Below the pieces are notes generated by a model. That model was not told the DNA's origin. It worked only from the letters and a program-made list of their open reading frames with translations, and ran no database searches. The translations under genes were made by a program, and so were the position numbers. A stretch of 64,000 nucleotides of DNA. Origin: Blattamonas nauphoetae. Its lineage: Eukaryota; Preaxostyla; Oxymonadida. How positions within the stretch are numbered: the stretch's first letter is position 1; each line of letters starts with the position of its first letter. Of the stretch, positions 6,779-39,321 are shown one piece after another. The stretch is from positions 62,001 to 126,000 of the forward strand of contig JARBJD010000042.1 in the NCBI GenBank assembly GCA_033064195.1, given 5' to 3'.

Positions 6779-9700
6779 TCAAGCGAAGAAGATGAATTGG
6801 TTGTTCACAATGTTCTTCTGATCCGTGTGCAGTCGTTGACCCTGCCCATCCACATCTTGTCCGACATCATCTGGTGTCTTGTGAGGGTGTTTCGACTTCT
6901 CCCAGATCGAGTTCAGTGTCACCAGAACTGTGTTCAGGTCTGGACGATCTGACGGATTCAGTTCAAGACACTCCAAAATCAGACTCTCCAGATCCTCGTT
7001 CATCCCTTCCATGTTCGGATGTGTTCCTGTCCCCGCCATCCGATGAGCGTTGATCCCATCCACCTCTCCAAACGGAACTTGGCCTGTGTCCACCTCGGCT
7101 AGCAGAAGACCCAAGCTAAAAACTGACGCTGCTGGCCCATCCACCTCTCCCTCATGCTTCTCGTCTGTTTCTGGTGCTTGCCATCGCTGCTCGTCTTCGC
7201 GTCGACGCGATGCTTCTTCCGCTGTGAACTTCCCGAAGTGTTCTTGTCCTCGCATCGTGTTGTGAACATCAAATCGAATCTCGCCCTTGTCATTCAGCAG
7301 AATTGCGTGTGGTGACAGACGAGTGAAGATCGCATGTGCTGGTTGCGATTCTGCCAACTCCTTCAGAGCTGTCACAATCTGAAACACAATCTTCTGCTTC
7401 TCTGTCATCGTCGATGTCCCGTTTCCATGAAGCTTCTCATACAGACTCACATACTTCGGAGCTGACGACACCTGCACTCCCTCGTTCATTCGAATCAAAA
7501 CATCTTCGCCAAAACTCGGCCCTGATCGCGCGTTGTCATCGCAGATGTCTTTCCCATCCCTCTGCTCTCTCGTTTCACCTTTCATCAGGTTGAGGTTTTT
7601 GTCGGATTCTTCGAACACGAATGCTGCTGTTCCGAGTGAGTGTTCAGGCAAGATGTCTTCTTTCACAATCTCTTCTTCGTTCAGTTCCTGGTTCGTCAGA
7701 AGTCCTTCGCTTTTCTTCTTCTTCTCGTTTCTTCGTCGACGAGCCAGCAACACAATCACCAACACCAAAATCAATCCCAACACAACCACTCCACAGATCA
7801 GAGGAAGAAGCCATTTCATCATCGCTGCTCCTTGAGCTTTCTTCTCATCCACCAAACTCTTCTTCAGCACAAACGACGATGAACGAACTCCATCCCCAAA
7901 CACCAAACATCCACTCTGTTCCGAGTCCACGTTCAGAGTCTTGTTCAGTTCAGAGTGAGAAAGTGCCAGGTTGATTTCTGTTTCGGAGAAGGAGAGTGTG
8001 CTGGATGGAGTGAGTGAGACGAGGAGAGGTGTCTTGTTCAGTTTGGACGAGTTTGTTTCTGACACTTCAAGGAAGAGCGAGCAAGGAATGAAGAGCGAGC
8101 CAGCGAGTGTGATCGACATCGATTTGTTCTTGTTCATCACCACCGAACTCTTCGAAGCATCCAAAGAAGGAATGAAGTGAGCTGCTTCCACTTTCGTTTC
8201 GTTCCGACGAACAACACAATTCTCATTCGACATCCAAAGCGATGGCGACTCAAACCCGTCTCCTCCACTCAGACTCCCGATCCTCACTTCTCCGTCCACA
8301 CACCGCAAGTTCCGCCGAGCTGAGGGGAACGACGTGTTGTGGGGAGTGTTGTATTCAAAAGTGGATGTGTGAATGGACACATTGGAGTTTTGAACGATGA
8401 GTGCACCGTTCATCAGGTGAGCGAACATGGAAGAGAGGATTCTGGCTGTTGTGTCGGTAAGTTGAATCGTTCCTGTTGTCCATGCACACATATCATTCTT
8501 GTCTTCCTGCTCATCGTCGTTTGATGAGGACGGAGGAGATTGAGACGGGCCTTCGAATGTGCAGCCAACCATCTGAAAGTCTGATCCGTTCGAGATCGAG
8601 ACGAGCTGGTCAATCGAGATGTTCTTCGCGGTGATCTCTTTAAAGTGAACGGAATCGAAGTGAGAGGCGATGAAGGGGGTTTGGGAGAAGGAGAGTGAGG
8701 AGAGCTGGATGTCAGTGAGTGTCGCGATGCCTCCTTCACATTCCACAATCGTTCCCAACTTAAACGTCGTTTCCGAGAATCGGATCATTTGGAGAGAGAG
8801 TTGAGAAGAAAGAGATTTGAAGAGCGAGATTGCGGATGAACCAATCACTTTCAGTTCAACGTTGCTCACATTCATGTGCCCACTTGTCACGCTGAACGGA
8901 GAGAGCGTTCGTTCTTCCGTCTCAATCTCAAACAGAAGACTCTCAAAGTGCACTGTGTCCCCTCCAACTTCACTGAACCATCCTGTCTTCCTCATTCGCA
9001 CTCGAGACATCAGCGGCTTCCCTTTCATCCTCATCTCGTTCCAAAGATCCACACCAATCGACACTTCCGCTGATCCCATCACATTCATCTGAGACGCTCC
9101 CATCTCTTCTCCTCGACTCATCGCCTGACTCATCGACCAGCACCACAGAGAGAAGTACCCACAACGAGGATGGTCTCGTCCACTTTCCGAAATCCCAATC
9201 GGCCCACTTCCTGTTTTCAGATAGAATACCAGCGACGTCGACAGTTCTTCCGACTTGTCCACACTCCACAGCCACTCCTCGTCCACTCCAACTCCATACG
9301 ACCCAGCAACGCGAGAATCATTGTTCACAATCCAACTCGACAGATCCTTCCCTTCAATCCACACAAAACGAGGCACAGTGTTCGTTTGTGTTGTGAGTGA
9401 GTATTTCAGGTTGGTGAGAGTGAACTCGGGAATCTTCGAAGGAGAAGAGATCGAAGTGAACGACACGAACAAGCCATCTCCCAATCCATTCCACACAGAA
9501 ACTGATTTCAGCAACACAGAATCGACAAGCAGTTTCATCCATTCCTTCATCTCACTTTCGAGAACTCCCCCATTTCCTTCCTTTCGTCTGATCGACGAGA
9601 AATTGGACGATGCGAGCTTGAGAGTGCCAGCAGAGTGCGAGATCAGAGCAGACGAGGAGAGGACAAATGAGGAGAACGAGCATTGCGTGACATCTGTTGA

Positions 9701-11670
9701 TCCTGATTCTGAGATTGTGATCAGCGACAATGAACGAGCTGTCGAATCGCTCTGAAAGACAAGTTTGGTGATTGTGAGCTGAGATTGGTGAACAATAAAT
9801 CCACCACTTGATTCCACAGAAACGAAGGCAGAATCAGCAAACGGAGAGATGGTGAGGTCGTGAGATCTGATTGAGATTGACGAGGCGAGTGAGGATTCGG
9901 AGTTGATGACGAGTGAGTGGGTTCCAACTCCGTCGAGATGTGAGTGAGCCAAGTCAAGTCCGAAACATCTCCGATTTGGATCACCACAGCCAGACACATC
10001 TTTTCCACCTGATCCAACTGAGATGGCATCACTTTTGTATTCTGCGAGGAAAGCGAGCAGACTCACTGAACGATAATCAGACGACGACTTCTCAGAAAGG
10101 TCTGTTCCCCAAAGAAGAGAATCGTGTGTTGGTGTGGAGAGAGAATCAGTTGTTGTCTGCCAGTTCGAAGTTGTGATGAGAGAGGAGAGCGAGTGACCTT
10201 CCACAAACACCCAACTTCCCTTTTCCGACGATCCACACGAACAAGCACTGTCAAAAGTAGATCTGACGATCAGAGAGGAGGATGGAACAGCTGCAGCACA
10301 AGAAACGAATACCACTCCTCCCTTTCCACCCGATGAACACAATGAGAACGAACCGCCTTCAATCAGGAGACTGTCTGTTGTTGAGGCGAGTGTTGAGTGG
10401 ATCACACTTCCATCACCTGTCACTTTCGACACATTCGCGATTTCACATCCTGTCATTTCCAGCTTCCCTCCCATCTGTTCGATCACACTCGACGATTCCA
10501 GCTCAAAGAGATGATCGAAGAGCATGTTTGTGTCTGTCAGAGTGAGTGATCCAGAAGAGACTGAGAAGAGCGATGCTGTTGAGCGCGTTGTGCCAGCGGT
10601 GTTCTGAATGTCGAGAGAGGAGAGGGAGAGCGATCCAGTTGAAACAAGAAAGACTGTTTTGGTGATTGCATCAGGAAGAGACACGACAAGAGAGGTCAAA
10701 GACAGTGATGTTGAAAGTGGAACTTTGAACTGAGCAACAGCTGTCAGAGTGAGTTTGGCAGGTGAATCTGAGGATGAAGATGAGATTTCAGAGCCTGTCG
10801 ATTTGGCGGTGACTATGCCTGAGAGCTCGACATCTGAGTGAAGAACGATGTTCTGGTCCTGTTCGGTCAGCTTGTTGTGAGCGGCGTGGAGAGACGAGCA
10901 GGGCAGCTGTTCAATTCCACAGTTCGGATGATCCCAGAAATCGGTGTTGATGTGAACAGCACCTGCCGAGTGTCCAAATATCAAATATGCAATCGGAACA
11001 CTCAGCGACGAGTCTTCTTTGTTTTCAAACCAATTCTCCACAATCGTGCTGAGTGTCAACTTCGATGCGTCTGATCCAACAAATGATTTCCAATCCGAAC
11101 AAGCTGCTGACTCCAGTGATGTCCCTTCAATGAAGATCTCGTGTTCGCCTGACGACGTTCGTTGCGTGACAGTAACATCACTCAAGTGCAGGTTGTTCGA
11201 TGCGAACGCATCGGGACGAGAGATGAACAGACTCCGACCCTTCCCAGACGAGCCACATCTGCTTCCATTCAGTTTCACACAGACCAGAGAAAGACGCCCA
11301 GACGAAGAAAAGTGAAGAACTGCTCCCGATCCAGAATTCTCAATCGAGTCAAAGTCAACATCACAAACACTCAGCGATCCACTTCCAGAAACAGAGATCA
11401 AACTGCTCGATGACGAGAGTGTGATTGGTGGGATCGTCGTCGAGGTCAGACTCGCTGATCCACCCGAGATCCACAAAAGTGGTGCTGTGCGAGATGAGGC
11501 AGGATGAGTAATTGTGCACGATTCTTCAACAATCAGCGACCCAGACTCCGTCGAGAAGAGCGGAGTGGTCGGTGACACAAGATTCATCGTTGTCCCACCA
11601 ATCGTCAGACTCCCTCCACACACTCTTCCAACTGAGATCCCAATTTCACTCAACCCATCTCCAATCTCAC
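6779..11670 (-). pseudogene. 3' part of giant beta-helix receptor pseudokinase gene, cut by DIRS insertion
   Basis: The reverse frame is open from the edge of the DIRS element (about 11670) to a TGA at 6779, about 1630 codons. Beta-helix modules open with paired-cysteine motifs: CGIEQLPCSS near 10920, CGDPNRRC near 9990, CGYFSLWCWS near 9160. A transmembrane helix (LLPLICGVVVLGLILVLVIV, about 7825-7750) is followed by RRRR. The cytosolic part holds a kinase-like C-lobe: LSPHAILL where HRD should be, FDV for DFG, RWQAPE for the APE motif, ASVFSLGLLLAEV for subdomain IX and RPDLNTVL for XI. No glycine loop or VAIK lysine is visible, so it is a predicted pseudokinase. This half has no start of its own; its first codons come from the element's terminal repeat. 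It is the continuation of 16365-22173 and reads in the same frame. Confidence 0.85.
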
Positions 11671-11753
11671 AGGCTCCAGCTGAAGCGATGAGCCTGTTAT
11701 CCACACAGGGCTCTCGCTCAGCATGAGAGAGTGTTGACGTGTTAAGGGTCGGT
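11669..11753 (+). repeat. Left terminal repeat of the DIRS element
   Basis: Begins at the AC shared with the right junction. Bases from about 11701 onward (CCACACAGGGCTCTCGCTCA and the following 33 bases) are the reverse complement of the right end, with about one mismatch. The first 30 bases are unique to this end and recur in inverted form in the internal complementary region. Confidence 0.85.
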
Positions 11754-11769
11754 AGATCAAACACCTCGA

Positions 11770-12774
11770 ATGAATCACGAATTCACAAACAAATCATTGC
11801 AACAAACCGGAAACGACAGCCGGACAACCCCCGCTGAGGACCCACCAGCCTGGGTTGGCCCCGCCGTCGAACATTTTGCAGCCACATTTGCAACAGTTTT
11901 GCACAGTATTGTTGGAGAAAATAAGGAAAAGACTGAACCCAGGCATCAAAACAGAAGGAATGAACGAGAAAGGCTCATCGATTCCGACTCCAACTCCGAT
12001 AGCTCAGATGAGAAGACATCACAACTTCTGTTGGAGAAACGAAAGCGTCTCCCTCCGAAGCCCACACAGATTCAAAAGAAAGTAAAACACAAAAGAAAGG
12101 CCGATGGATCAACACAGATCGATTACAACAGTGACTTTTCGGAGTCGGACACTCGCTTGCAGCTTGTCCCATCTCAACCACATCAGAATCTACGCAGCTT
12201 CGCCTTAACGTCGCAGAAATTGATTCAGATGTACATCCCAAAGTTTTCTCTCGATTGGCTATCATCGACACTCCCAGCAGAAGTCCTAGATGAAGTCAGA
12301 GGATCAACTGAGTATCTCCGCCCGGCATTCAAAATCGCCAGCAAGACAAAAGACGCCCTTCGCCCCAACGACATGCCTGGAAAGATTGACACTATTGCTA
12401 AGTCGGCAGTAGACAGCCTTCTCGTCGCCCTCTCAGCCTTGTCTGAATTGCTCGTTAGCATGAAAAGAATAGAAGTACCTGATGAACTACTACGACAATG
12501 GACGCAAGTCACGTGCTGTGTCGCAGATGCTGCTACAAAAGTTCAGGCTCAGCGATATCTGCGGAATAAGAACTGGACGGATGTTGCCCAAGCACTTGAG
12601 ATCCAAACCGAAGTTGGAGAGCCGCAAGTACTCACGAGTGTGCGCCACGACACTGACTTTTTTCGAGGGGAGGGGATGGAAGACAACCAAGCCAACTTCC
12701 ATCCCCGGCCCAACCGAAGCTACAGATCATATCGTCCCCTCAACAAGCCACCTGGGAGTCGCAAACCACAGTAG
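11770..12774 (+). mobile_element. Gag-like ORF1 of the DIRS element
   Basis: A 334-codon frame immediately inside the left terminal repeat. The product has a charged, Ser/Glu/Lys-rich N-terminal third with a basic stretch (KKVKHKRKADG), a helical middle and a C-terminus rich in Arg and Pro (RPNRSYRSYRP). Position, size and composition match the ORF1/Gag-like protein of DIRS elements, which is poorly conserved between lineages. I see no zinc knuckle. Function (packaging element RNA) is assigned from the family. Confidence 0.65.
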
Positions 12775-12797
12775 TCGTTCCAACCCAACGCCTTCCA

Positions 12798-14700
12798 ATG
12801 ATGAAACACAGACTGAAGACACAGTTGGAACGATGGCGAGCAATCGGTGGCGACAAGAGAGTTACAAAAGGAATGTTTGGGGAGTGGAAGACGCCGAACA
12901 GCGAGACGAGGCTCATCGGGACAGCTTCACCTCATCCATTCTCAGCGTCATCCCGTCTAGAACATCTGTTCAGCCAAGAATTGAAGAAGGAGATGCAGAC
13001 AGCCGTTGTCAGGGAAGCCACCACCGGAGAAGTTCTGTGGTGGAACAAGACGTTTATGATACCGAAGAAGGACGGAACGTACCGCAAAATTCTCGATTGT
13101 TCGCAACTAAACGAGGAAATCAAAGATCGGAGTTTTCGCTTCGAGGACTTCTCAACGCTGAGACAGATGATACAAGCAAACGACTTTGCCACTGTGATCG
13201 ACATCAAACAAGCCTTTCATCACGTGGATGTTCAGCCGGAATTTCAACGCTTCCTGGGTTTCAGATTTCAGAACAGAGATTATCTCTATCAGACGATGCC
13301 TTTTGGAGTCAAGCATGCCCCGCGCGTGTTCACCAAAATCCTCCGTCCAGCAATAGTCCACATCCGTCAACAGTGGAACCTGCGAGTTTTGGCATACATG
13401 GACGACATCATCCTTCTCCACCAGAACCCCACACACCTCAGTGCTGTCACGTTGGAAGTGTTGCAGTTCTTGAAAGACTTGGGTTGGTTGGTGGCAGAGG
13501 ACAAGTTGATTCTGAAACCAACCCAACAGCTAGACTACCTGGGATGGAGTCTCGACTTGAAGGAGAGCACCTTCAGAACACCACCAGCAAAACAATCAGC
13601 GTATATCAAAGCTACTTCCAAAGACTGTGTCCCTCGCACTCGGACGGAAGAAGGTGACAAACCGATCGCTCGCCAAACTAATCGGGAAACTGAATTCACT
13701 TCACCCACAACACAATCAGTCCTCTCTGTATCTGGGGGCATTACATCGAACACTTCAGAGAGGACTAAGACTGACGGGATGGAACGGATCCTGTCGTCTG
13801 AACCCGTCAGTCTTGGGAGATCTTTCATTCTGGACCACAGCACTCAAGCGGAACAGACCACAGCTAATAGTACCACCATCACATCAAGCCTGCCTGACAA
13901 CAGATGCCTCAGAGAAGGGGTAGTGCTCGAGTGGAAGAATCACTCGGTTCCGATGTTCGGTCAATGGTCAACCAAGACACTCCCACACTCAATCAACGTA
14001 AAGGAGACAATGGCGGTGGAGCGAGCGGTCAAGATGTCAAGACACATTCTGAAGAGAGAGAACATATCCAATCTGAAAGTGCGAACAGACAATACAACAA
14101 CAAAGTTCAACTTGCAGAAGTGGAAGGCAGGAAGGAACCTCCTCTCGCCGACAACAGCAGTTTGGTCGCGTTGCGCGAAGACAGGAATATCGATAGTGGA
14201 GGTGGAACACGTAAAGGAGTGAACAACGTCGTGGCAGACTCTCTCAGTCGCCTCCACCCGTTGGGAGAGTACCAGATCCTCCCAGCGATCTTCCATCAGC
14301 TAGTCTCCGAGCTGGAATGGAGACCAGAAGTGGACGCATTTGCGTCCCGAGAGACCCGCCTTCTCGAAGTGTACTGGTCGCTCAACAGCGAGCCAGAAGC
14401 GACAGCGACAGACGCACTGGTTCAGGACTGGGAGGGAAAGAAACTGTGGATCCACCCTCCCATCCGACTCATCGGCAAGGTCCTCCGGAAGCTGCAACAC
14501 TCATCATGCCAAGCGGTGCTCGTTGTTCCCAGTTGGGAAGGCCAGTCCTGGACACACCTGTTCCACCAGCTGTGCCCGACTCGCCGAACGCTCGGATCGT
14601 ACGAGACGATAATGAGGATGACAGGTCAGAACTCGACTCCAGAAGACTCAGAGGAAGGAAGACAAAGACTCCCACCAGGACTGGTGGGAGTCGGTTTCCA
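12798..14700 (+). mobile_element. Reverse transcriptase, RNase H and DIRS-tail region
   Basis: Reverse-transcriptase motifs are clear: IPKKDGTYRKILDCS, IDIKQAFHHVDV and the catalytic AYMDDIILL, followed by LDYLGWSLD of the thumb/connection. An RNase H signature (TTDASEKG) lies further on. After it comes the DIRS-typical segment with DAFASRETRLL and LVVPSWEGQSW (about 14280-14570). In the family these copy the element's RNA into DNA. Overlapping frames are usual in DIRS elements. The region is not whole here and is treated as a fossil. Confidence 0.85.
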
Positions 14701-14719
14701 TCAGATCAGAACGAAGCCG

Positions 14720-15843
14720 GAGAACACTTCTTTTGTCAACTCAGAGTTGTAGCCAAGATAGACGAGAAGGCAGCAGACAGATTCCTTCCACAATCCCGCG
14801 ACGCTCGAAGGAAGTGGAGGAGAGCGTTCACGTTGTTAGACGAGTTTGCGGACGAACGGGGAATCTCTGACGAGGAGTTCGTTCACGGCGAAGGAGTCGA
14901 AGCTCACATGTTAAACTTCACGAACTGGTTGTTCGATCAGTTCGGAGAGAAGAAGTCCACAATGGACATCGCTACAACTGTTCGCTCCACTTTGTGTCTC
15001 CTCAACCCAAAGACTATTCGCGAAGACTCTCCCACATGGAAGAAATGTCAGAAGGAAATCAACAAGAGGACCACAGCTCCACCAAAAAGGAAATATGACA
15101 TCATGTGGGACGTCGAATTACTGTTCAAATGGGCTGGTGAGAGCAGATGGCAATCTGAGGTGGATTTTGTTCAACAGCAGAGGAGAACTCTTGCCTTGGT
15201 CATGGCATTCACTTGCTTACGACAGGCTGAGCTGCAGAGACTCACGTGGGGAGCAGTGACGTGGAAGCTGGATGTGGAGCCACCAAGAGCTGAACTCCTC
15301 GTCTCAGTGAAACAAAATATCCAGATGAAAGTCCACCGAACCGTGACATCCATTCGTCAGACATCGATCTCGCCGTTCCATGCACTCCAAGAGCATCAAC
15401 AACGGGTCCTCTCCATTTTCAATTCAAAAGCGAACTGCCAGCATGACTCACTCCCGCCAACAATGCCAGTCTGGGTTGAGGCAGCGACTCTTCAAGGGCT
15501 TTCCATTCAGCGAATTCGAGAAGAGACAAAATCAATCCTGCAAGAGTTGGGACTCCCAGCGATCTATGGAGGCTATACTATCAAACACGCAATGATTTCA
15601 TATCTCAGATCCGTTCAGGAGATGGACTGGGCCGACATCAACGCTTTGGTTGGGTGGAATATCAACTCAACCGCCGCACAGACGTGGTACAACATCCGAG
15701 TCGCGGACAGAGCGAACATACAGACTCGGATAGCTGACCAACTGAAGCTGCCGAACCCGGACGACACGGTAGGCCCTGGCAAGCAAGACAAGCAATTCCC
15801 GACTTGTGATCCTCATGCTGAGGCGAGAGCCCTGTGTGGATAA
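14720..15843 (+). mobile_element. Tyrosine recombinase of the DIRS element
   Basis: The last coding part of the element, ending at a TAA inside the internal complementary region. The catalytic fold is marked by CLRQAELQRLTW (first catalytic Arg), the YTIKHAMISYLRSV block (Lys/His/Arg region) and QTWYNI near the C-terminus with the probable nucleophilic Tyr. In DIRS elements this enzyme integrates a circular DNA intermediate without making a target duplication, matching the junctions seen here. Confidence 0.85.
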
Positions 15844-15896
15844 CAGGCTCATCGCTTCAGCTGGAGCCTGTATTACCACACAGTGCTCTCGCTCAG
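15812..15896 (+). repeat. Internal complementary region of the DIRS element
   Basis: Its first 60 bases are the reverse complement of the left end (GCCCTGTGTGGATAACAGGC and onward). Its last 26 bases are the reverse complement of the right end (ATTACCACACAGTGCTCTCG and onward). It therefore spells the joined ends of the circular intermediate, the diagnostic feature of DIRS replication. Confidence 0.85.
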
Positions 15897-15899
15897 AGT

Positions 15900-16307
15900 A
15901 GCCATCAGCTTCTCTGGCGTCGGGTCGACTCCACCCAAAAACCAGCTCATCGTCGACTGTCTTCTTGTCTTCTCACATCCCATCTTTCTCTTTTCTTTAA
16001 ACAACCAACCAGTTTCAGTCTTCATTTCTTCTGATTCCTTGAACCGTTCGATTTCTCTTTAATTCTCGCTCTAGCCAGGCAATGCCTCCTCCAGTCTGGT
16101 ATCCTCGGATCCACTGGAGCTGCCTTGAATTTCCTCCGCGAGAGCACTCAGTGTTGTCTCCTTCAAGAGAGAACATCCTTGGAGCAGAGAACATCAGTGC
16201 TAAGCCTAGGAGTCAACGCACTGATCTGATGAGACCATCTCCTGAACGAGGGAGACTCTCATAACATAATTTGATTCATTCGATTGCTTCTTTCTCGGTG
16301 TCAATCC
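15900..16307. other. Non-coding segment of the DIRS element before the right repeat
   Basis: About 400 bp between the internal complementary region and the right terminal repeat. No frame of note and no recognised motif; probably untranslated element sequence. Confidence 0.5.
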
Positions 16308-16364
16308 ACCGACCCTTAACACGTCAACACTCTCTCATGCTGAGCGAGAGCACTGTGTGGTAAT
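16308..16364 (-). repeat. Right terminal repeat of the DIRS element
   Basis: Inverted copy of the inner part of the left terminal repeat, ending GTGTGGTAAT immediately before the AC shared at both host junctions. Confidence 0.85.
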
Positions 16365-22173: not shown

Positions 22174-22597
22174 TAATGTTTCCTTCTCACCCAAAACTTT
22201 GTTTCTTGCGTTAGTTTCAAGGTTTCTGTCATAATAGTTGAAATTGTCAGAGGAAGAGAGTTAATAAAGGGTTTATATTCGGATTCAGGCTAGAGGTTTC
22301 GCTCAAATCATCCATGAAATGAAATAAAAGATGTGAATGAGAGGCCTGTACGAATTCGATGATTTGACACGATGAATCATGTCGACCTAGGTCACTATCA
22401 GTGAATTTGAAATTGAAGAATATCAAATCGTCAAGCTAGGGTTTCAAGACTCGAGAACCCCAAAAGATGAGAGGGAGAAGGAATAGAGGGAGTGTGATAC
22501 GTGTCAGAGGGGACAAGGTTCAACAGAATCTTGTGAAAAGGAGGAGAGAATGAAAACGTGTGAAGTGAAGGCGAGTGTGAAGAGAGAAGAACTCCGA
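22174..22597. other. Intergenic region, probable promoter of the receptor gene
   Basis: About 420 bp between the receptor start codon and the 3' end of the SPRY-like gene. AT-rich around 22190-22330. No frame or repeat of note. Confidence 0.4.
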
Positions 22598-28265: not shown

Positions 28266-31200
28266 ATGCCACAATTCGCATTTTTCTCGCTCTTCCTCCT
28301 ACTCTCAGCGGGAATAAGCACATCTCTCCCAACTCTATTTAAACATATCACGAACGAAATCCGACTTCCGAAAGCAGACTTCCATTGCGATGGATATCTG
28401 TTCGAATCGACAAGAATTTCAGTGAATGGAGAGAATGGCACAGTGATCAAGATGACAGACTCAAAGTCGACACAACACACTCCTAGCAAGCTGTCCAATG
28501 AGGCGACAAGACATCCTCCGTTCATGTTCAGACTTGTCAACTCAACGGCATCGTTCGGTTCCCTCAAGTTTTCTTTGGAATCACAGAATGCTCAATTTGA
28601 CGGAAACATGAACAAAGACCAGCCAACTGGAACAAGGACAACTGGTCGTCCACGCTGTGCCCTCATCGAATCATCAACAGTAATCCTCACACATATCGAG
28701 TTCCAGCTCGAAGCAATCATTTCCCCGCTTTTGATCACATCCACAGACTCATCACCTGATGCCAGTTCGTTCGTCACGCTGGTCAGCTGTGTCATCCAAA
28801 CAGGCACGCCCCTCATCCCGTCCTTCACCGAAATCATGTCCGAACAACCATCATCCACTGCAGCTGTTGTGACTGTCGCTTCGGCGTCGATCTCGTCTCT
28901 CTCGCTCCTCGGGGAGAGTGGCATTGCTTCAACCGTCAACTCCAAATCGTCCTCTCCACGCCTCTCAACAATCGTCACAACATCGCATTTCCACAATCTG
29001 ACAGCGACACCACTTCCTCACTCTCAACCTCGTCATCGTCCAACACAGGTTTTGGCAGGAAACGAGATGGTCAGAGTGGACGATGCTTTGTACGGGACAG
29101 TGGCATCCATTCTGGGCCACTCGCAGTCGTTCGACCTCATCAACTCAACACTGCTCGAATGTGAGAATCCCCGAACAACAAGGAACGAGGATGACGCGAC
29201 AATCAAGAACATCACAGGAACACACACATTCACGTCATGGACAGGATCTTTCAGAAATGAGACGGGATTCACACATTATCACTTCACAAGCTGCATCATC
29301 ACTTCGACTGAACAAACACAGGCGTTCAACATCATCTTAATTGCAGGTCTTTCAGGAGCTGTGAAACTGACAAACTGTTCTTTCACAATTGATTGCAAAA
29401 GCTACGATGTTACATTGATGAACTTGAGAGGAGTGACAGAAGGAAAACAGTCGCTCTCAATCGATTCATGTTCTGTGAAATTCGACAAGAATGAAACACT
29501 TCCGCAAACAAGCACTCAGATCCAGACGTACTATTCAATCATGACAGACATCACTCATTCCACCTTCGAATCACCAAAAGGAGATTCTCGAACAAGAACG
29601 TTCGTTGCTTTCGACTCTGTTGCGTTCATTCAGACGAACAATTGCCTATTCAAAGGCCAGACCACCTCCTCATCTGGATCTGTGTTCTTGCATTCCAACG
29701 CATACCAAATCCTTCTTCTCTCCGATTCGCTCTTCGAAGGAAACAAGGCTGGAGGTCATGGAGGCAGCCTGGCAACGAATTACGCTCATCAATCATTCTC
29801 CCGCTGTGTCTTCAGAAAGAACGAGGCAGACATGAGAGGAGGAGCTCTTTACATGCATTACCCGCAACATCTCTTCCTCGAAGACACACACTTCGACAAC
29901 AACAAAGCGAAGGAGAAGTTGACAACGACCAACGATTATGCACACTACAGAGGAAACGACATCCATCTGACTACACACAACATCTCGTTCTTCTCAACGG
30001 TAAATGTGATTGGTTGCACGTCATCGACTCCTTCCAACAAGATCGGGTTTTACCACACTGCTGTCAACAACGCTGATTTTGCTGATCAAAAAAAGTTCTT
30101 CCCAGCTCCGATTGAAACAAAGGCTAAGCAGCTCTTTGTAGAAACAGGAAGAACAGGAGAGGATTGTGATGAGTCCAATCCCTGCTCGTTCGTCTCCGCA
30201 GCCATCTCGAAAGCCGAGTCGATCTTCACACAAATCCACGTCGCTGTTGGCGATTACTCGCTCAGCGATGAAACGATCACAAAATCGATCCAGATCGTCG
30301 GGCAGGGATGGATGGTGAACTCGACAAAGTCAACAATACTCAAGATGGGCGAAGTGTGTGTTGGGAGCAATGGAAACCTGACACTCACTTCACTCTCCCT
30401 CAAGCCACTCAACACCTCGTCTGTCATTCTCAGCCATTCTGCAGCCACAGCGACCAGTCTCGTGAAAGACGTCAGGATCGAAAATGTGGCACAACACACC
30501 GTCCCTCTCTTCTCGTTCTCACAAGGAAAAGCGACACTCCGAGTGTGCACATTCAACACAATCGCACTGACGACTTCGGCTGCAGTGTCTGTGTCTGGAT
30601 CAGCATCCCTCACCCTGTACCAAGTCTGGTTCATGCACATCTCGTCACTCAGCACGACAGGAGGAAGCTGTCTGGATGTGAATACAAGTGCTTCTGTGTC
30701 GATTGAGATGAGTGACGCTTCGCGCTGCTCATCGAATGGTCCAGCTGGTGCTTTCTTCATCACGAAAGTGGGAAGCTCGACACTCACTCTGAAGAGTCTC
30801 ATCTTCACCGAAAACAAAGCCTCGTTGTCTCTCTCTCAAATCGGGAACGACATCGTTCTGTCAGGCTTTCTGCCCTCGTTCGTGTCGATCAGCAGTCCAA
30901 TCAGTTCTGTGAGCAACAAACCGCATTGTCTGGTTAGGGACAACCTGTTGGATTGTCAGATTCAGAACTTTCAGATTCCGAACTTCGGGTACCACGAATA
31001 CGGGATCCACCATCCAATCAACACTCGCTTCTATTTCGGCCTTCCCATGTCACAGTTCAAAGGCGTGTCTCAGACAGTCAACAATCTCGTCTCGCCTGGA
31101 ACGCAGGTCGACATCAGAATCAAGAATACAGACACAATCATCATGGAAGACACAACCTTCACAAATCGGAAAGCTGATCTTCGATTGTTGGTCATTCAAC

Positions 31201-34200
31201 ACAATTCTACCTCACCCACTTCTCGGTATCTGCTTCGAGAAGATGTCACACTCAGATTAATTAGTGGACAAATCCAGCTCCCTGCCGATCCTCTTACAAC
31301 ACCGTTCATCGTGGATGGATCCAATTCTCTACTTCTACTTGGAAGCACAACGATCACCCTCCCTCCCATCCTCTCCCGCCCTTTCATCATCAACAAAGCC
31401 GGAACCACCCACATGAATGGTGCTGGCTTCAACTCACATCTCTCCCTTCAAGGCTGCTCATTCATTGAGTCGCTCAGTGGGACAGTGAATGTCGATTATC
31501 GAACAATTTCGAACGTCCATTCAGACGTCGACGGAAGCTATCTGAATGCGAAGAACACATCACTCCAGTTCCAACGATTCGAATTTGTGAACTGTTCAGC
31601 CAAAAATGGTGGAGCTTTGTTTGCTGTGTTGGATGGATCAAACTTCATCCAGTTCCAATTCTATGCTCCCTACACCACTTCCTTCCGTGATTGTCGAGCA
31701 ACAGCGTTGGACGAGAATGGGGTGTTGGTTGGGAAAGGCGGGGCGATTTATGTGAAAGGGACTTCGACAGACGCGAGGCCGATCCGATTCAACACGACAG
31801 CACTGAACCACGCGAGATTCGAGAACAACACAGCCGGCAGAGGCAATGACATCTTCATCGAATCCTCTCTTTTCGCGGGGAAGACAGTGGATCAGATTCC
31901 AGTCTTCGGAGGAGGGTCGCTGAGCAGCATGTATCGAGTGGCGATTGAGGGACGAGACAGCGAGGAGGACAAAGAGACCATCCATTACTTCCTTCCCTCA
32001 CCTTCGATTTCTGTGAATGGGAGTGTGATTGAACCTATTTCAGGAGTGAGTGGAAAAGACGACGACAACTGCAAGTGGGTCGACACTCCATGTGCGACAC
32101 TGGAATTTGGAGTGAAGCATCTAAAACAGAAATACGAGGACGGCAGACACTTCCCGCAGCAGATCCGATTTGTGTGGAACATGACATACACAGAGAAGGC
32201 GATTGTGATCACGGAACAGGACATCACAGTGTCAGGCACAACAACGACGAATGCAAAGACAGCAAAAGTGTTGAGGTCGATTTTGGAGGTGGACAAAGAC
32301 GCTGTGGAAGGGTCGTTTATCTTTACAATCAACAACACAGCACAGCTCGCTGTGACGAACCTGGACATCCATCCAATCGCGAAGTGTGGGCTGTTTGATC
32401 TGAAGGACGATGCACATTCGCTGAAGTTGGACGGTGTTGGTGTGATCTGCTCGGACTCCGAATCGTATCGTCATCCTTTCATCAAATCCACAAAGCACCC
32501 AGTCACCCTTCAGAACTGTCATTTCAACACAACAGACGAGTCGAGAGGTCCAGCGATCTGTGCAGTGCCTCTCGTCTCGTTCTCGTCGACTGAGCATTCT
32601 TTCTCCATCAAGTCGTCGTCGTTCAAATCCTTTTCTGTGTCTGGACACGCTCTGCTCGCCATCACAACCGAACAGCCGATCTCGTTCGTTTCTGTGAAGT
32701 TCGACGACATCACACAGACAGTTTCTGGGAAAGCTCGATGTATTCACGTGACCTCGTCCTCTCTCGGCACAGTCGTGACTGCTTCACTTTGGACAGGATC
32801 GTTCTCGCCAACACAGCATCTTTTGGACTTCGTTGGATGCGACAGCTCTCTCACCTCTGACCACCCATTCTTCGAATCATCGCTGCTGTTCCATCTCCTC
32901 CCTCCCACAGGAACAGTCGTGGCTGGTCAGACACCAGACAATGAAGAGAGCGAGCATCCAGAATGTGGGACAGACCGACTCCGCTGCTCCACTCTCAACT
33001 CAGCCCTCTCGTCAGCGCTCTCGCATTCACTCTCAACACACATCGACGTTGCTGGACAGGTCAACTTGTCGTCTCCTCTCGAAGTGACCACCACAGCGAC
33101 ATTTTCATCGTCCTCCGGAAAACAGACAGTCGCTCAATCTTCGGCAGGAACAGTGACGATGAACAAGATCGGCGACACTCTCTCTTTCGTCTCGTTGATG
33201 TTCTCGCTCGATCATTCCAGTCTCATTTCGAGTCTCTTCCATGTCTCCACAGGAACTCTCTCGCTGACAGCATGTGACATCGGGACGCCAACCATGACCA
33301 CTCTCAACGAGATATGCCTCTCGCTGGCTGATGTCGCGGATGGTGCCTCACTCAGTCTGACAGGATCGGTGTTCCAGAACGTGAAGTTCTCTCATCCTTC
33401 ACTCGGCACAGCCATCGTTCTCAGACTCGGCTCGTCCTTTTCATCCGACACTGCCTCGCTCTTCTCGTCTGTCTCTTCAAACGCAGCTGGTTCACTTGTC
33501 TTCGTCGAATCAGCCGACATCTCGTCGACGGCCCAGTTGCCATCCTTCATCCTCCTCAAAACAACAATGGAGCCTCTTCCAAGCCGCCTCTTCACAGACG
33601 AAGAGAAGAAACGGTTTGTTGGGAAAGTTGATGGAAAGGACGCAGAGAGTCTCCTCTTCTTCTGGTTCCCGCACTCCGCGAATGATGCGACGTTGGATGT
33701 CGATGGGAATGGAGAAGACCATCCGAATTGTGGACTCCCGCAGCTTCCTTGTCGGACACTGGAAACAGGCTTTACCTCGCTCAAAGCTACGAAATCTGCC
33801 CTCTTTCTGAACAGCCCAGACCGAATCAAAACTGTGTTGGCAACAGCCTTCGCCGAACAGACAATCAAATCGAAGAATGAGAAGCACGAAGTCACAATCG
33901 AGTGCATGGGAGGTCTTACTGTGTCGACGAACCAGCAACTCATCCTGTACACCATCGCGTTTGTTTTTGAAGCGGGCAAACGAACCTCTCCGTTTGCTTC
34001 TGTGTCAGCCGGCTCACTCCAACTCATGTCTTGCTCATTCGGCACCGACACTCCAACTGCCCTCGGTTCGTCCCTTCTCCATGTGAAAGGAAGTGTAGAG
34101 GTTGAGAGTTCATCTTTTTCGAAGCTGAGCACGACTGACGAGAAGGGATTGATTTGGATGGAGCAGGCTAATCAGAACATTGTTTCGTTCGTCTCAACAA

Positions 34201-35267
34201 CAATCGCTTGTTGCACATCGTCATCCGCTCCTCTCATCTCGCTGACCCTTTCAAGCACCAGTCGGCAGGACAGTTGGGATTTTGATTTCAGCGGAATCTC
34301 GTTCACCGAACCGTCGTCCAACGATGCACCAACTGGGACACTCGTCTTCATCTCTGGCTCCTCCTTCGCCACACAGATTGTTCCGTCCCGCTTTCCACTC
34401 ATCAACTCTGAGACAGATGAGAACAAGTTTTGGGGATTCGATTCATTGACTTCAGTTGATTCGTCGTTGCTTGTTTATTTGGTCGAGATTGGGAGTGAGG
34501 TTGATGTGGATGGGAAGAAAGGGAAGGACATCGCCTACTGCGGTCATTTTGGAGTTGCTTGTCAAACGATTGGAAAGGGGATTGGAAGAGGAACAGCTGA
34601 ACACGCCTCGAAACAGATCAACATTCAAGACGCGACGAAGATGGACGAAAGGATCACTCCGAACTCAATCACTCTCTCGATTGTGGGTGAGACTGGACAA
34701 CAACCAATCTCGGTGTTGGAGGAGGGACAATTCGAAATCAAAAATGGAAAACTCGTCCTCTCATCGCTCTCCTTCGAAACAGATGTTGCCTCTTTCGCTC
34801 GCTCTCTGATCGCTCTCCACACAGCTGGCTCACTCACAATCACATCCTGCTCCTTCACATCGTTCTCCTCATCCACATCTCCCTCTGTCCTTTCCGCCAC
34901 CATCCAACCCACCCAGTCAGTCACTCTCTCCAACACATCCTTCATCTCCTGCAACTCCACAGCTTCCACACGCTCTGGTGTTCTTGATGTGACTCTCTCT
35001 GAAGGAAGCACGTTCACACTCACCCACTCCACCAAACCGTTCGCTTCCTGCTCGTCTCCGAAAGCGACAGCCAATCAGATCTTCATCTCGTCCCCGTCTC
35101 TGTCACCATCAGTGATCTCGTCGTGTCTTCAGTTCGTTTGGACAAAGACATCAACTTCGTTGGCAGACTTTGCTGGGAAAGGAAGGAGATCATCCTGTTC
35201 CTGTCCCACTCTTCCTCTATTTCTCGTCGCTCGGGGAAGAAGTGTTCATCTCGAACGATTCATGTGA
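28266..35267 (+). CDS. Giant beta-helix receptor, N-terminal 2333 codons (frame 1)
   Basis: ATG 28266 opens with signal peptide MPQFAFFSLFLLLSAGIS. The rest is continuous beta-helix, Ser/Thr-rich with many N-glycosylation sequons. Module-opening cysteine pairs occur at about 30170 (CDESNPC), 32070 (CKWVDTPC), 32965 (CGTDRLRC), 33735 (CGLPQLPC) and 34545 (CGHFGVAC). Each is followed by a short capping helix, as in pectate-lyase-like repeats (family knowledge). The frame leaves beta-helix character at about 35180 (STSLADFAGK) and runs on in nonsense to a TGA at 35265. The true continuation is in the overlapping frame starting near 35170. A single one-base slip in the GA-rich stretch 35172-35190 would explain this: assembly error, mutation or programmed shift. 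No intron is seen. Confidence 0.8.
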   Translation: MPQFAFFSLFLLLSAGISTSLPTLFKHITNEIRLPKADFHCDGYLFESTRISVNGENGTVIKMTDSKSTQHTPSKLSNEATRHPPFMFRLVNSTASFGSLKFSLESQNAQFDGNMNKDQPTGTRTTGRPRCALIESSTVILTHIEFQLEAIISPLLITSTDSSPDASSFVTLVSCVIQTGTPLIPSFTEIMSEQPSSTAAVVTVASASISSLSLLGESGIASTVNSKSSSPRLSTIVTTSHFHNLTATPLPHSQPRHRPTQVLAGNEMVRVDDALYGTVASILGHSQSFDLINSTLLECENPRTTRNEDDATIKNITGTHTFTSWTGSFRNETGFTHYHFTSCIITSTEQTQAFNIILIAGLSGAVKLTNCSFTIDCKSYDVTLMNLRGVTEGKQSLSIDSCSVKFDKNETLPQTSTQIQTYYSIMTDITHSTFESPKGDSRTRTFVAFDSVAFIQTNNCLFKGQTTSSSGSVFLHSNAYQILLLSDSLFEGNKAGGHGGSLATNYAHQSFSRCVFRKNEADMRGGALYMHYPQHLFLEDTHFDNNKAKEKLTTTNDYAHYRGNDIHLTTHNISFFSTVNVIGCTSSTPSNKIGFYHTAVNNADFADQKKFFPAPIETKAKQLFVETGRTGEDCDESNPCSFVSAAISKAESIFTQIHVAVGDYSLSDETITKSIQIVGQGWMVNSTKSTILKMGEVCVGSNGNLTLTSLSLKPLNTSSVILSHSAATATSLVKDVRIENVAQHTVPLFSFSQGKATLRVCTFNTIALTTSAAVSVSGSASLTLYQVWFMHISSLSTTGGSCLDVNTSASVSIEMSDASRCSSNGPAGAFFITKVGSSTLTLKSLIFTENKASLSLSQIGNDIVLSGFLPSFVSISSPISSVSNKPHCLVRDNLLDCQIQNFQIPNFGYHEYGIHHPINTRFYFGLPMSQFKGVSQTVNNLVSPGTQVDIRIKNTDTIIMEDTTFTNRKADLRLLVIQHNSTSPTSRYLLREDVTLRLISGQIQLPADPLTTPFIVDGSNSLLLLGSTTITLPPILSRPFIINKAGTTHMNGAGFNSHLSLQGCSFIESLSGTVNVDYRTISNVHSDVDGSYLNAKNTSLQFQRFEFVNCSAKNGGALFAVLDGSNFIQFQFYAPYTTSFRDCRATALDENGVLVGKGGAIYVKGTSTDARPIRFNTTALNHARFENNTAGRGNDIFIESSLFAGKTVDQIPVFGGGSLSSMYRVAIEGRDSEEDKETIHYFLPSPSISVNGSVIEPISGVSGKDDDNCKWVDTPCATLEFGVKHLKQKYEDGRHFPQQIRFVWNMTYTEKAIVITEQDITVSGTTTTNAKTAKVLRSILEVDKDAVEGSFIFTINNTAQLAVTNLDIHPIAKCGLFDLKDDAHSLKLDGVGVICSDSESYRHPFIKSTKHPVTLQNCHFNTTDESRGPAICAVPLVSFSSTEHSFSIKSSSFKSFSVSGHALLAITTEQPISFVSVKFDDITQTVSGKARCIHVTSSSLGTVVTASLWTGSFSPTQHLLDFVGCDSSLTSDHPFFESSLLFHLLPPTGTVVAGQTPDNEESEHPECGTDRLRCSTLNSALSSALSHSLSTHIDVAGQVNLSSPLEVTTTATFSSSSGKQTVAQSSAGTVTMNKIGDTLSFVSLMFSLDHSSLISSLFHVSTGTLSLTACDIGTPTMTTLNEICLSLADVADGASLSLTGSVFQNVKFSHPSLGTAIVLRLGSSFSSDTASLFSSVSSNAAGSLVFVESADISSTAQLPSFILLKTTMEPLPSRLFTDEEKKRFVGKVDGKDAESLLFFWFPHSANDATLDVDGNGEDHPNCGLPQLPCRTLETGFTSLKATKSALFLNSPDRIKTVLATAFAEQTIKSKNEKHEVTIECMGGLTVSTNQQLILYTIAFVFEAGKRTSPFASVSAGSLQLMSCSFGTDTPTALGSSLLHVKGSVEVESSSFSKLSTTDEKGLIWMEQANQNIVSFVSTTIACCTSSSAPLISLTLSSTSRQDSWDFDFSGISFTEPSSNDAPTGTLVFISGSSFATQIVPSRFPLINSETDENKFWGFDSLTSVDSSLLVYLVEIGSEVDVDGKKGKDIAYCGHFGVACQTIGKGIGRGTAEHASKQINIQDATKMDERITPNSITLSIVGETGQQPISVLEEGQFEIKNGKLVLSSLSFETDVASFARSLIALHTAGSLTITSCSFTSFSSSTSPSVLSATIQPTQSVTLSNTSFISCNSTASTRSGVLDVTLSEGSTFTLTHSTKPFASCSSPKATANQIFISSPSLSPSVISSCLQFVWTKTSTSLADFAGKGRRSSCSCPTLPLFLVARGRSVHLERFM

Positions 35268-38200
35268 TGTGTCGGTTTGTGGATTCTCGGAGTATCCATG
35301 TGCTTCCCTCGCTGCTCTTCACTCGAGAATCGAAGACACACCAGACACAACAGTAACATTCAGAACATCCATCGACCATTCAGCCGAACTGACATTCACC
35401 GAAGACACGACACTCGCTGGAAATGAGCAACATCTTGTCATCAAAGAAACATCGACATCGGAAACTCCCAACAGCCTGTTCACGATCAGAGCGAACATGT
35501 CAATTGAGCAGCTGTTCGTCGAAATTCCTTCCACATTCCAGCATTCCTCTCTTCTGCAATGCCAATCAGGTTCACTTGAAATGTCGAACTGTTCTCTCAC
35601 CCAAAAAGGCTCCACACCCATCCCATCCACTCTGATCCAGATTCTCGCAGGTTCGAGTCTCAGCGTGAGCAAGACATTCTTCACTCGTGTCATCTCCTCG
35701 AACGAGAAGGCAGGTGTGATTTCTGCGATCATCACAGAATCCACATATTTCCTTCTCAACAACAACACATTCGCGTCCTGTTCCTGTTCAGGCCAAGCGA
35801 ACGCGATCTTCCTCGAACTTGAGAACACAACCACAGTTCACGCCGACAGCTTCGATTATCTGATGACAGACCTCGTGCTCGACTCTTCTTCCTCCAACTC
35901 CGACACAGAAATCGAGATCGACGTGTTTGTTGTTGGGAACAATCTGGACAAGACGATGACATCAACGAAATGGGAGAACAGCTTCTCTCGTGAGAAGGGA
36001 TCGTCGCTTTGGGGAGAGGACACAGCAACAGGCCTCAACATCTCTCTGCTCCCTTATCTGGTGGCTCTGGAAGGACCAGTTGAGATTGACGACGATGGAA
36101 AGGGATTTGAGAAGTGTGGGCACTTCTTCCTGTTCTGCAACTCGCTCGAGCTGGGACTGCGTCGAATGAAGGAAGCGTCAGTCGCCACAATGAAAGTGAT
36201 GGAGAAGATCACTACAACGACTCTGCTCGAACCGAAGTGTGATCTGTGCATTTATGGGAACGAAGAATCGTCAACACTGTCCTTCTCGTTGGATGGCTGC
36301 TTCGTCAATTCTCCGAAAGATGCCACTCCGTCCAGTCTGTCCTTCTCGTCTCTCGCCATCATCGTCCCATCCGAATCGAATCACCAGTCTCTGTTCTCGT
36401 CACTCTCTGGCACGCTCTCGTTCACTTCCTGCACCGTCACTGGATCCTTCTCCAACCCCATCATCTTCTCTCTAATCACTCTCACAACAGGTGACCTTCT
36501 CTTCTCCTTCACACACTCGAAATCAATTGCCCTCCAATCAACACCTCTGATCGCCTCTTCTGGGTCGATCACGATGACCAACTGCAACTTCACATCGATC
36601 AGTCGAGTGGATGGGTTGGGATGTGTTTTGGAGGCAGATTCGTCGGGATCGATTCTGGTTCAGCACTGCCTCTTCGTTTCGTGCATATCGAACAGCACAA
36701 CCAATTGGATCCATCTTCTCGGAGCTGACACTCACACACTGAACAAAGAGAACTGGGAAGGAACATTGAATACATCCTCTCTCCGTTCGAGTGTCCTTCT
36801 CTCCACATCGCTGCTGTCAGCTTCATCAATCTCCGGCGCCGACCCCTTCGATCCTCACTCTCTCCTGTACGAATTCTATCCTCGCACGACTCCACGGATT
36901 GTTGTTCAGAAGGATGAGAAGAATGAAGACCATCCACTCTGTGGAAGTGGCGAGCTTCCTTGCTTATCTGTGGACACTTCGGTTGACTTGACGAAAGTTC
37001 GAACAGTGGAGATCAACGGAGAAGGAGAAGTGAAGACGCAGATGAAGATGGATGGAGACTTCCTGACGATTGAGGGACACAAGAAACGCGGAGTGGTGAA
37101 GATTGTTGGGAAGGGACAGATTGTGAACAATGTGTTCGACGATCCAGACACACTCCTCCTCTCGTTCGTCAGTCTCGATCTGTCGCAGTCGACACTGGAA
37201 GAAGGAGGGATTGTTGTGAACGAGAACGGAGAAGTGAAACTGGACTCGAACATTGTCTCCTCCCTCTCCACCATCCGATCATCTCTCATTCAGCTGACAG
37301 GCGGCCAAGCTGTTGTTGTCAACCTGACTCTGACTGATCTCTCGTTCTCGCCAACCGTGTTCGATTTCTCGTCCTTTGATTCTGTCTCGTTGTCGGAAAT
37401 CTCAACAACGAACTGTTCGATTGGCAAGTTTGTGAAGGCCTCAGAAGGAACGCGCTTCTCTCTCAAATCGAGCTCGTTCGTCGGAAGCACCACCACTCCC
37501 TCAGAAAATGAAGAGCAAGAGGAAGACTTGCAGGAGAATGTCTGCGACTGGCCAGACTCGTTCATGTCTCTAATCAACACCACCTCAACCATTGAGATGT
37601 CAAAGTTCTCACATCTCCAAATTGGAGCAGTTGAAATGGATGGTGGCTCACTGACAATTGATGGGAGCATCTTCCACGACAACGCTGTTGACAACTCGTC
37701 CTTCCCTTCAGTGCGTCGGAACATCCACTGTCTGGCTGGGAGACTTACGATGGAAACACTGAGTGGAGGAGATGGACAGCTAGCTGGTTCGTCAGCGTGG
37801 ATTGCTGTTGAGGAAGGATGCCAATTCTCGTCGCTGATTGTCGATGCACACGCTCCTCTCTTCATCCCAACACTCCTTCCCTCTCTGAGCAAGGTTGAGA
37901 CAAACAAGAAGACAGCACAAAAGACGGTGAAACTTGCTGGCAAACTGTTGATTCCGTGTGGTCTCTCACTGGAGGTGTTCGAGTGGAACGAGAAATCCAA
38001 AACAGCAACAGACAAATCGACTGAAATCTCACTCGTGACTGCCAACATCCAAAACTGGAACGAGACATCACTGGAACTCATTCTGAACGAATCGTCTCTC
38101 TCCAACACACTCAACGTCGAACACGAATGGCGTCTGCGTCTCGTCTTCGGCGATGGTGTGGCTGGAGTGGAATGGATCACTTTGAAGCAAAGCCGAGCAG

Positions 38201-39321
38201 CAGAGAAGAAAGCTCAAACGACTCAAGCGATGAAAGTTCTGCTTCCCATCGTGATCTCTGTCATCGCTGCACTTGCTCTCTTCACAATCATCGTGTGCGT
38301 GGTGTGTTGTCGTCGGAAAGCAAAACAGTCGGAAGAGAAGCAGAATCTGCTGAATCAACAAGAGTTGGACCACGTCGAGGTGAAAGTGGATGTCGAAGAG
38401 TCGATGAACATGATGGCCGACAGATTCTCCAACAACTTCCCTCCCAAGACTCTCAGCGAGTCAAAACTCGAAGGAGCAGGGTTCACTGGGAACGTCGAGC
38501 TCACCAAAAAAGAAGACGAGGAAGGAGAGGAAGAGCCACACACGACAGCAAAGTTCCTGTGCGAGGCAATGAGATGTGATGGATCGTTTGAGATGTGTGT
38601 TGTGGACACGCGCCACTCGCTCCACACTCGAATCCACAAACCGGCTCCGAATGCCCCTCCTCTGCCTCGCTTCCAGATTGCGTTTGAGATTATTGAGGGT
38701 CTGAAGCGGATGTCGAAGGAGGACACTCTTCAACGATTCCTGAGCAAGTTGAATCCGCACCGGATCTTGCTCGGAACAGAGGACCAAGTTTTTCTGAAGG
38801 TGGAAGAGACAGCCGCTGTGCCTCCCGACAAACAACAACTCCACCCGCCCAACGCGAACGACCCCCACCCAACACCACATCCCCATCACCTTGACGCAAT
38901 CAGTTCGTACGACAACGACAATCTGCAGCGATGGGTGGCGCCTGAACTGGGCGAGACAGACAAGACGAGAGACACTGCGGAAGGGAGGAGCAAGGAGGAT
39001 CTTGTGAAAGCGTCGGTTTTTAGCTTGGGCCTTGTCCTGTTGGAGATGGAGACTGGGATCGTTCCGTTTGGAGAGATCGATGGGATCAACGCGCAACGTC
39101 AGCTGGGAACAGGAACAAGGCCAAACATGACAGACGTTGGAGCAGAAATGAAGGATCTGATTTCGGAATGTCTCGACGTAGACAAGACAGCTCGGCCAAC
39201 ACTCTCGACAGTTGAAGAAAGGCTGATTGAGATCGGGCAGAAAACAGAACAGCTGACAAGTGGTGAGGCTGAGTCGATTCAGGACCAGCTGAAGAAGAGG
39301 ACAGCAGCTGCTCCGATTTGA
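35170..39321 (+). CDS. Giant beta-helix receptor, C-terminal part with membrane helix and pseudokinase (frame 2)
   Basis: This 1383-codon frame has no ATG at its 5' end (first codon TTG) and begins in mid-module (DHPVPVPLFLYFSSLGEEVF), so it continues the frame ending at 35267, which it overlaps by 98 bp. Cysteine-pair modules start near 35280 (CGFSEYPC), 36120 (CGHFFLFC) and 36945 (CGSGELPC). A transmembrane helix (LLPIVISVIAALALFTIIVC, about 38240-38300) is followed by CCRRK. The cytosolic kinase-like domain (about 38640-39230) has LNPHRILL for HRD, no DFG, RWVAPELG for APE, ASVFSLGLVLLEMETG and ARPTLSTV. The glycine loop and catalytic Asp are absent, so it should not phosphorylate. Full locus about 3680 residues, paralogous to 6779-22173. 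Confidence 0.8.
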   Translation: MLGKEGDHPVPVPLFLYFSSLGEEVFISNDSCDVSVCGFSEYPCASLAALHSRIEDTPDTTVTFRTSIDHSAELTFTEDTTLAGNEQHLVIKETSTSETPNSLFTIRANMSIEQLFVEIPSTFQHSSLLQCQSGSLEMSNCSLTQKGSTPIPSTLIQILAGSSLSVSKTFFTRVISSNEKAGVISAIITESTYFLLNNNTFASCSCSGQANAIFLELENTTTVHADSFDYLMTDLVLDSSSSNSDTEIEIDVFVVGNNLDKTMTSTKWENSFSREKGSSLWGEDTATGLNISLLPYLVALEGPVEIDDDGKGFEKCGHFFLFCNSLELGLRRMKEASVATMKVMEKITTTTLLEPKCDLCIYGNEESSTLSFSLDGCFVNSPKDATPSSLSFSSLAIIVPSESNHQSLFSSLSGTLSFTSCTVTGSFSNPIIFSLITLTTGDLLFSFTHSKSIALQSTPLIASSGSITMTNCNFTSISRVDGLGCVLEADSSGSILVQHCLFVSCISNSTTNWIHLLGADTHTLNKENWEGTLNTSSLRSSVLLSTSLLSASSISGADPFDPHSLLYEFYPRTTPRIVVQKDEKNEDHPLCGSGELPCLSVDTSVDLTKVRTVEINGEGEVKTQMKMDGDFLTIEGHKKRGVVKIVGKGQIVNNVFDDPDTLLLSFVSLDLSQSTLEEGGIVVNENGEVKLDSNIVSSLSTIRSSLIQLTGGQAVVVNLTLTDLSFSPTVFDFSSFDSVSLSEISTTNCSIGKFVKASEGTRFSLKSSSFVGSTTTPSENEEQEEDLQENVCDWPDSFMSLINTTSTIEMSKFSHLQIGAVEMDGGSLTIDGSIFHDNAVDNSSFPSVRRNIHCLAGRLTMETLSGGDGQLAGSSAWIAVEEGCQFSSLIVDAHAPLFIPTLLPSLSKVETNKKTAQKTVKLAGKLLIPCGLSLEVFEWNEKSKTATDKSTEISLVTANIQNWNETSLELILNESSLSNTLNVEHEWRLRLVFGDGVAGVEWITLKQSRAAEKKAQTTQAMKVLLPIVISVIAALALFTIIVCVVCCRRKAKQSEEKQNLLNQQELDHVEVKVDVEESMNMMADRFSNNFPPKTLSESKLEGAGFTGNVELTKKEDEEGEEEPHTTAKFLCEAMRCDGSFEMCVVDTRHSLHTRIHKPAPNAPPLPRFQIAFEIIEGLKRMSKEDTLQRFLSKLNPHRILLGTEDQVFLKVEETAAVPPDKQQLHPPNANDPHPTPHPHHLDAISSYDNDNLQRWVAPELGETDKTRDTAEGRSKEDLVKASVFSLGLVLLEMETGIVPFGEIDGINAQRQLGTGTRPNMTDVGAEMKDLISECLDVDKTARPTLSTVEERLIEIGQKTEQLTSGEAESIQDQLKKRTAAAPI

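Follow-up and report, generated by a model that had tools for sequence, protein, structure and literature searches.

The window analysed here is a stretch of 64,000 nucleotides from the oxymonad Blattamonas nauphoetae (assembly GCA_033064195.1, contig JARBJD010000042.1, positions 62,001 to 126,000 of the forward strand). There are three loci in this window that encode members of a family of giant putative receptors, namely locus 1 (6779-22173), locus 2 (28266-39321) and locus 3 (60112-63641), the last of which falls outside the range of 6779..39321 given for the observation in an initial annotation of this DNA. All three share a beta-helix ectodomain, one membrane helix and a cytosolic domain bearing motifs of the protein kinase C-lobe, and all three lack the glycine loop, the beta3 lysine, HRD and DFG, just as that annotation had claimed.

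The cytosolic ends of all three loci match kinase models in Pfam, and they do so from the C-lobe side only. Locus 1 matches Pkinase from profile position 84 (E 1.3e-7), locus 2 matches Pkinase from position 163 (E 4.5e-6, under the curated cut-off) and locus 3 matches PK_Tyr_Ser-Thr from position 141 (E 7.7e-5, narrowly under the cut-off). In none of the seven family proteins that have a kinase match does the match begin before position 84. With at most one mismatch allowed, the window contains three instances of an F-helix signature, one in each locus (7083-7123, minus strand; 39016-39056, plus; 60338-60378, minus), and 100 shuffles contain none. Translation with an alternative genetic code (table 6) barely altered the frames, and no RNA family was found at the gathering level within the window.

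Locus 2 lies on the plus strand and occupies two frames. The first (28266..35267) encodes 2333 amino acids with a start that resembles a signal peptide by eye, followed by ectodomain, and the second (35116..39321) encodes the remaining ectodomain, the membrane helix and the cytosolic domain. The frame shifts near 35180, where gene model P0001, whose protein is 90-92% identical, continues; a sequencing error, an intron or a mutation may be responsible. The second frame includes a beta-helix region (36889..37860), a membrane-proximal beta-sandwich stem recognised from AF2 secondary structure and weak immunoglobulin-like Foldseek matches (37891..38187), a membrane helix apparent in the sequence and as AF2 helix 568-607 (38236..38310), and a C-lobe-only kinase domain with beta4-beta5 and alphaD to alphaI, as predicted by AF2 and Foldseek/VIA (38557..39249).

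The beta-helix, stem and membrane helix appear in an AF2 model of the last 608 residues of the locus 2 ectodomain part, and the ectodomain fold of loci 1 and 3 is assigned by homology alone. The N-terminal proteins of loci 1 and 2 each score above the cut-off for the Chlamydia PMP repeat (Chlam_PMP; E 2.5e-5 for the protein as a whole), with no single stretch passing; these parts are distinct from the C-terminal one in which the beta-helix was modelled. In the AF2 model of the cytosolic portion, residues 1-75 are disordered and structure starts at beta4, such that the N-lobe is reduced to beta4-beta5 and neither beta1-beta3 nor alphaC is predicted. This model, which is a prediction and not an experiment, is not a bilobal kinase fold. 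It does present the alphaD to alphaI fold with the APE glutamate and the alphaI arginine, and thus the C-lobe-only kinase fold suspected at the outset is predicted rather than an unrelated one. With kinase-domain homology and loss of the catalytic motifs the domain qualifies as a pseudokinase, and the succession of ectodomain, single membrane helix and cytosolic kinase-like domain is that of a receptor (pseudo)kinase. MLKL and KSR2 are among the best PDB sequence matches of the cytosolic domain and ILK is among its best Foldseek matches, while the significant named matches in a BFVD search were ordinary viral kinases only.

Locus 1, on the minus strand, had been read as one uninterrupted gene, but it is split by an opposite-strand DIRS-like retrotransposon (11669..16367, plus strand). 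The two inverted ends of this element are 57 nt long (11701-11757 and 16304-16360), and a region in its interior is complementary to each of them. Its reverse transcriptase and tyrosine recombinase were recognised by eye. An apparent end of the same element was also seen, by eye, beside another family copy (L023). On one side of the insertion is an open reading frame (ORF) for 1875 amino acids of N-terminal ectodomain (16335..21962), in which homology to a paralog on contig C206 stops at 16365. On the other side are the C-terminal ectodomain, membrane helix and cytosolic domain (6779..11782), with gene homology beginning at 11671. The membrane helix (7742..7813, by eye) is followed by RRRR, and the C-lobe kinase-like domain, placed by profile and alignment, spans approximately 6899..7510. 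A possible first exon (21580..22194), judged by eye, supplies a methionine and a signal-peptide-like start in a frame that differs from the rest, and the corresponding stretch is likewise out of frame in the C206 paralog. That paralog is a single uninterrupted frame of 3489 amino acids, of which residues 1-1860 match 21941-16365 and residues 1860-3489 match 11671-6782, at 87-88%.

Locus 3, also on the minus strand, is interrupted by a hAT-like non-autonomous element of 903 bp with CAGGG termini (60744..61646). It is flanked by 8-bp target duplications (60736-60743 and 61647-61654) and separates the C-lobe kinase-like domain (60112..60743, profile match) from the end of the ectodomain, the membrane helix (approximately 61938-62009) and the juxtamembrane segment (61623..63641). 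There are 29 genome matches to the interior of the element, 19 of them full length and the window copy included, and they form two similarity groups (94-96% and 78-79%).

The family extends far beyond the window. The genome searched comprises 88.3 Mb in 837 contigs; the genome paper reports 25,221 genes on 88,537,989 bp in 879 contigs, and the passages of it that were searched contain 'kinase' twice and 'beta-helix' zero times (PMC10703272). Six protein queries, with 134-150 scored of 1166-1353 first-look candidates each, recovered at least 505 distinct loci on 221 contigs, once places fewer than 1200 bases apart were merged and second pieces of single matches were excluded (three rows in each of two locus lists and one in another). 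This count is a lower bound because locus 2 surfaced only when it served as the query itself, and locus 3 was never among the matches listed. It rests on match scores, with catalytic residues tabulated for 139 domains only. A Chao2 estimate of 983 is a rough guide only, since six queries are not random samples. A sister locus lies within 20 kb for 193 of the 505 loci, and more than 50 of 137 family matches sit in frames longer than 2000 amino acids. The family has so far been seen only in Blattamonas: the matches listed in three protein searches (42 of 42, 120 of 132 and 39 of 39) are all from B. nauphoetae, although such searches would miss relatives sharing few words and the presence of other oxymonads in the database was not checked. 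The database calls many of these entries 'protein kinase domain-containing', and a kinome tally for this species that relied on the label would go astray.

Among 137 family proteins, which were retrieved with family members as queries such that more distant intact relatives could be missed, RWx[APS]PE, in which the first residue may be R or K, is present in 134, VFxLGL or IFxLGL in 134 and a TLYxxLH-type motif in 136. A strict membrane-helix rule is positive in 122 and misses 15. RWx[APS]PE and VFxLGL also occur in all 34 later-found proteins (P0138-P0171), and a crude rule for signal peptides picks out 44 of the 171 gene models. An alignment was made of 139 domains (136 proteins, leaving out P0136, which has no TLYxxLH motif, and the three window domains), whose median pairwise identity is 36%. 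None of them has the HRD histidine, the HRD aspartate, the loop lysine, a DFG-like motif or the F-helix aspartate, and partial leftovers are limited to the HRD arginine (10 domains) and the loop asparagine (15). Stray DFG and HRD strings, in P0067 and P0151 respectively, lie outside the catalytic positions. By comparison, the arginine of RW, the APE glutamate, the phenylalanine of VF and a proline are retained in all 139, the tryptophan in 138, an aspartate in 138 of 138 and the final arginine in 137 of 138.

The segment aligned to HRDLKPxN mostly reads LT[RK]LS[PS]HW, with a new histidine in 126 of 139 domains and a basic residue at the aspartate position in 90. Because this degenerate state and its replacements are common to the family, the three window copies do not represent three loss events. 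We therefore reject three independent losses, and with them the description of the motif loss as convergent. Approximately 10-30 alignment columns past the membrane there is also a juxtamembrane LL...E(M/L)...EK pattern, in which the glutamate and lysine have frequencies of 0.98 and 0.92 where a residue is present. It is possibly a sorting or docking motif.

Selection was estimated for 28 domains as Nei-Gojobori ratios of nonsynonymous to synonymous substitution (dN/dS), in pairs that share members and are not independent. The median for the cytosolic core is 0.28 (pairs with core dS of 0.05-1.2), the listed pairs span 0.08-0.61, and outside the core the 60 juxtamembrane pairs have a median of 0.26 and the 72 stem pairs one of 0.32. 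Core values are thus well under 1, as expected under purifying selection.

These computed features of topology, fold, catalytic-residue loss and constraint cause us to consider it probable that the loci belong to a family of giant type I beta-helix receptors whose C-lobe-only, tyrosine kinase-like (TKL-like) tail is under purifying selection and has a putative docking, non-catalytic output. The tail has no catalytic parts and is nevertheless conserved, and therefore the proteins probably sense or grip an external target and exert their effect through docking rather than phosphorylation. Retention of the APE glutamate and final arginine, with loss of HRD and the F-helix aspartate, fits a C-lobe that serves as a scaffold, and a docking role is plausible. 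In the predicted layout, a beta-helix ectodomain and its beta-sandwich stem are followed by a single membrane helix with a basic stop, by about 75 disordered juxtamembrane residues and by a TKL-like kinase domain that appears cut to beta4-beta5 and the C-lobe and to have neither an ATP site nor catalytic residues. Perhaps the ectodomains recognise a range of surface ligands, with bacterial or gut glycans the likeliest, and the near-invariant APE, helix F and F-G residues (RWxAPE, VFxLGLxLWExETGxVPFxExDxxNAxR) provide docking for a cytosolic partner that the receptors have in common. Many receptors would then converge on a single non-catalytic output, which could be adhesion or uptake, or could consist in recruiting an active kinase.

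Several observations weigh against this interpretation. In the window itself, two copies are interrupted and the remaining one changes frame. The core of locus 1 has a dN/dS of 0.32 relative to C206, no lower than the 0.30-0.34 of the ectodomain (five usable blocks; two of seven were dropped from this ungapped comparison for a dS near 2 and indel misregistration), and as both parts are constrained the core is not singled out. Higher core ratios of 0.4-0.6 occur mostly in more distant pairs. Core dS is frequently under flanking dS, and gene conversion may add to the similarity of close pairs; it cannot account for residues that stay near-invariant among copies only 36% alike. Finally, the ectodomain resembles lyases in fold, yet such resemblance is no proof of glycan binding, and one ectodomain match alone reaches E 0.001 by Foldseek.

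The cytosolic domain resembles the TKL pseudokinases MLKL, KSR2 and ILK in having a related C-lobe with lost catalytic residues. Those proteins have non-catalytic roles and a complete N-lobe, whereas beta1-beta3 and alphaC are not predicted in the Blattamonas family, and none of the three is a beta-helix receptor. ILK and KSR act by binding partners and may be the nearest working analogies for docking. The function of pseudokinases is usually explained by a bilobal fold with a repurposed ATP site, and we know of no C-lobe-only receptor family of such size.

Giardia, another metamonad, shows a massive lineage-specific pseudokinase expansion like that of Blattamonas, in which 139 of 195 Neks are without one or more key catalytic residues, and it has been suggested to have no receptor kinases (PMC3218828). 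However, those proteins are of the Nek family and carry ankyrin repeats, unlike the TKL-like, membrane-spanning proteins described here, in which no domain keeps the catalytic HRD. Entamoeba has 90 putative TMK proteins, in which a single membrane helix links an ectodomain to a tyrosine-kinase-like domain, but their ectodomains are CXXC-rich and, of the 28 kinase domains in the B1 family, 13 are complete and the others are broken by truncation or stops (PMC2880585). The Pmp-like proteins of Trichomonas have Pmp-type domains, and 90% of the Pmps of T. vaginalis have a membrane helix, but they differ in having cytoplasmic tails with endocytic motifs, and 'kinase' is absent from the main text of that paper (PMC6701047). 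The plant BRASSIKIN pseudokinases are without the glycine loop, VAIK, HRD and DFG, but they have no ectodomain or membrane helix and number two or three genes in most genomes and at most nine in diploid Brassica (PMC6907349). Neither pseudokinases of the receptor type nor kinase expansions in protists are new. The family itself appears undescribed, as had been proposed, since no account of it was found in the literature searched, which mostly did not cover subscription journals.

If the docking interpretation is true, a family of at least 505 loci that has lost the N-lobe and ATP site but retains near-invariant C-lobe residues would separate docking from nucleotide switching. The family would offer a natural variant library for mapping the docking face and a clue to the means by which this amitochondriate endobiont of the gut senses its surroundings or holds on to them. 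A broader proposal, which we advance tentatively, is that perhaps a thousand beta-helix receptors share one minimal C-lobe docking module for repertoire-type recognition of bacteria or gut glycans unlike that of known receptor kinases, showing that a C-lobe alone can persist as a signalling domain.

Another possibility, which we find somewhat doubtful, is that the family forms a diversified adhesin or antigenic coat, wherein the C-lobe is a folded anchor or sorting handle for trafficking, endocytosis or cytoskeletal attachment and transmits no signal. The weak Chlam_PMP matches, the conserved juxtamembrane pattern and the sister loci within 20 kb, which recall variant surface families, are consistent with this, as is the report that Trichomonas Pmp proteins, with their endocytic tails, raise adhesion (PMC6701047). 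However, a simple sorting motif would need less than this domain offers, which runs to about 230 residues, roughly a dozen of them near-invariant. It is very unlikely that the family is dying, spread by duplication and functionless. The window copies would suit such a fate, with mobile elements in loci 1 and 3 and a frame change in locus 2, and for them the initial preference for function rather than decay does not hold. It does hold for the family, given the low core dN/dS, near-invariant motifs despite 36% median identity, the many frames longer than 2000 amino acids and the intact C206 paralog. There is least to recommend the idea that the domain catalyses some unusual reaction, of the kind reported for the pseudokinase SidJ (PMC6858067). 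The conserved new residues of the old catalytic loop would favour it, but a nucleotide-binding N-lobe is not predicted and no profile match begins before position 84.

Intact beta-helix receptor kinases as ancestors of the family were also considered and found no support among 15 kinase loci, most with long frames, from 150 and 146 matches. Two membrane kinases of the same genome, L045 and L043, keep HRD or DFG, have different ectodomains and are possible active partners. No Pfam beta-helix was found in either, which is weak evidence since Pfam is also weak on the beta-helices of the window.

Other features of the window include two similar, adjoining giant ORFs (43507-49506 and 49643-54253, minus strand), beta-helix-like by eye and with no Pfam kinase match, which end in QDEL and HDEL, respectively. 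These ends resemble endoplasmic reticulum retention signals, and the proteins could be resident relatives of the receptors in that compartment. A shorter secreted-looking protein (3479-5803, plus strand) has, by eye, a membrane segment and a short tail but no C-lobe, and no Pfam match at E 0.01. An ordinary-looking kinase C-lobe followed by a zf-Di19 zinc finger is encoded at 54217-55716 (minus strand), and an open DDE transposase ORF, probably of the mariner/Tc1 type, lies at 58399-59493 (plus strand; DDE_3, E 3.4e-12).
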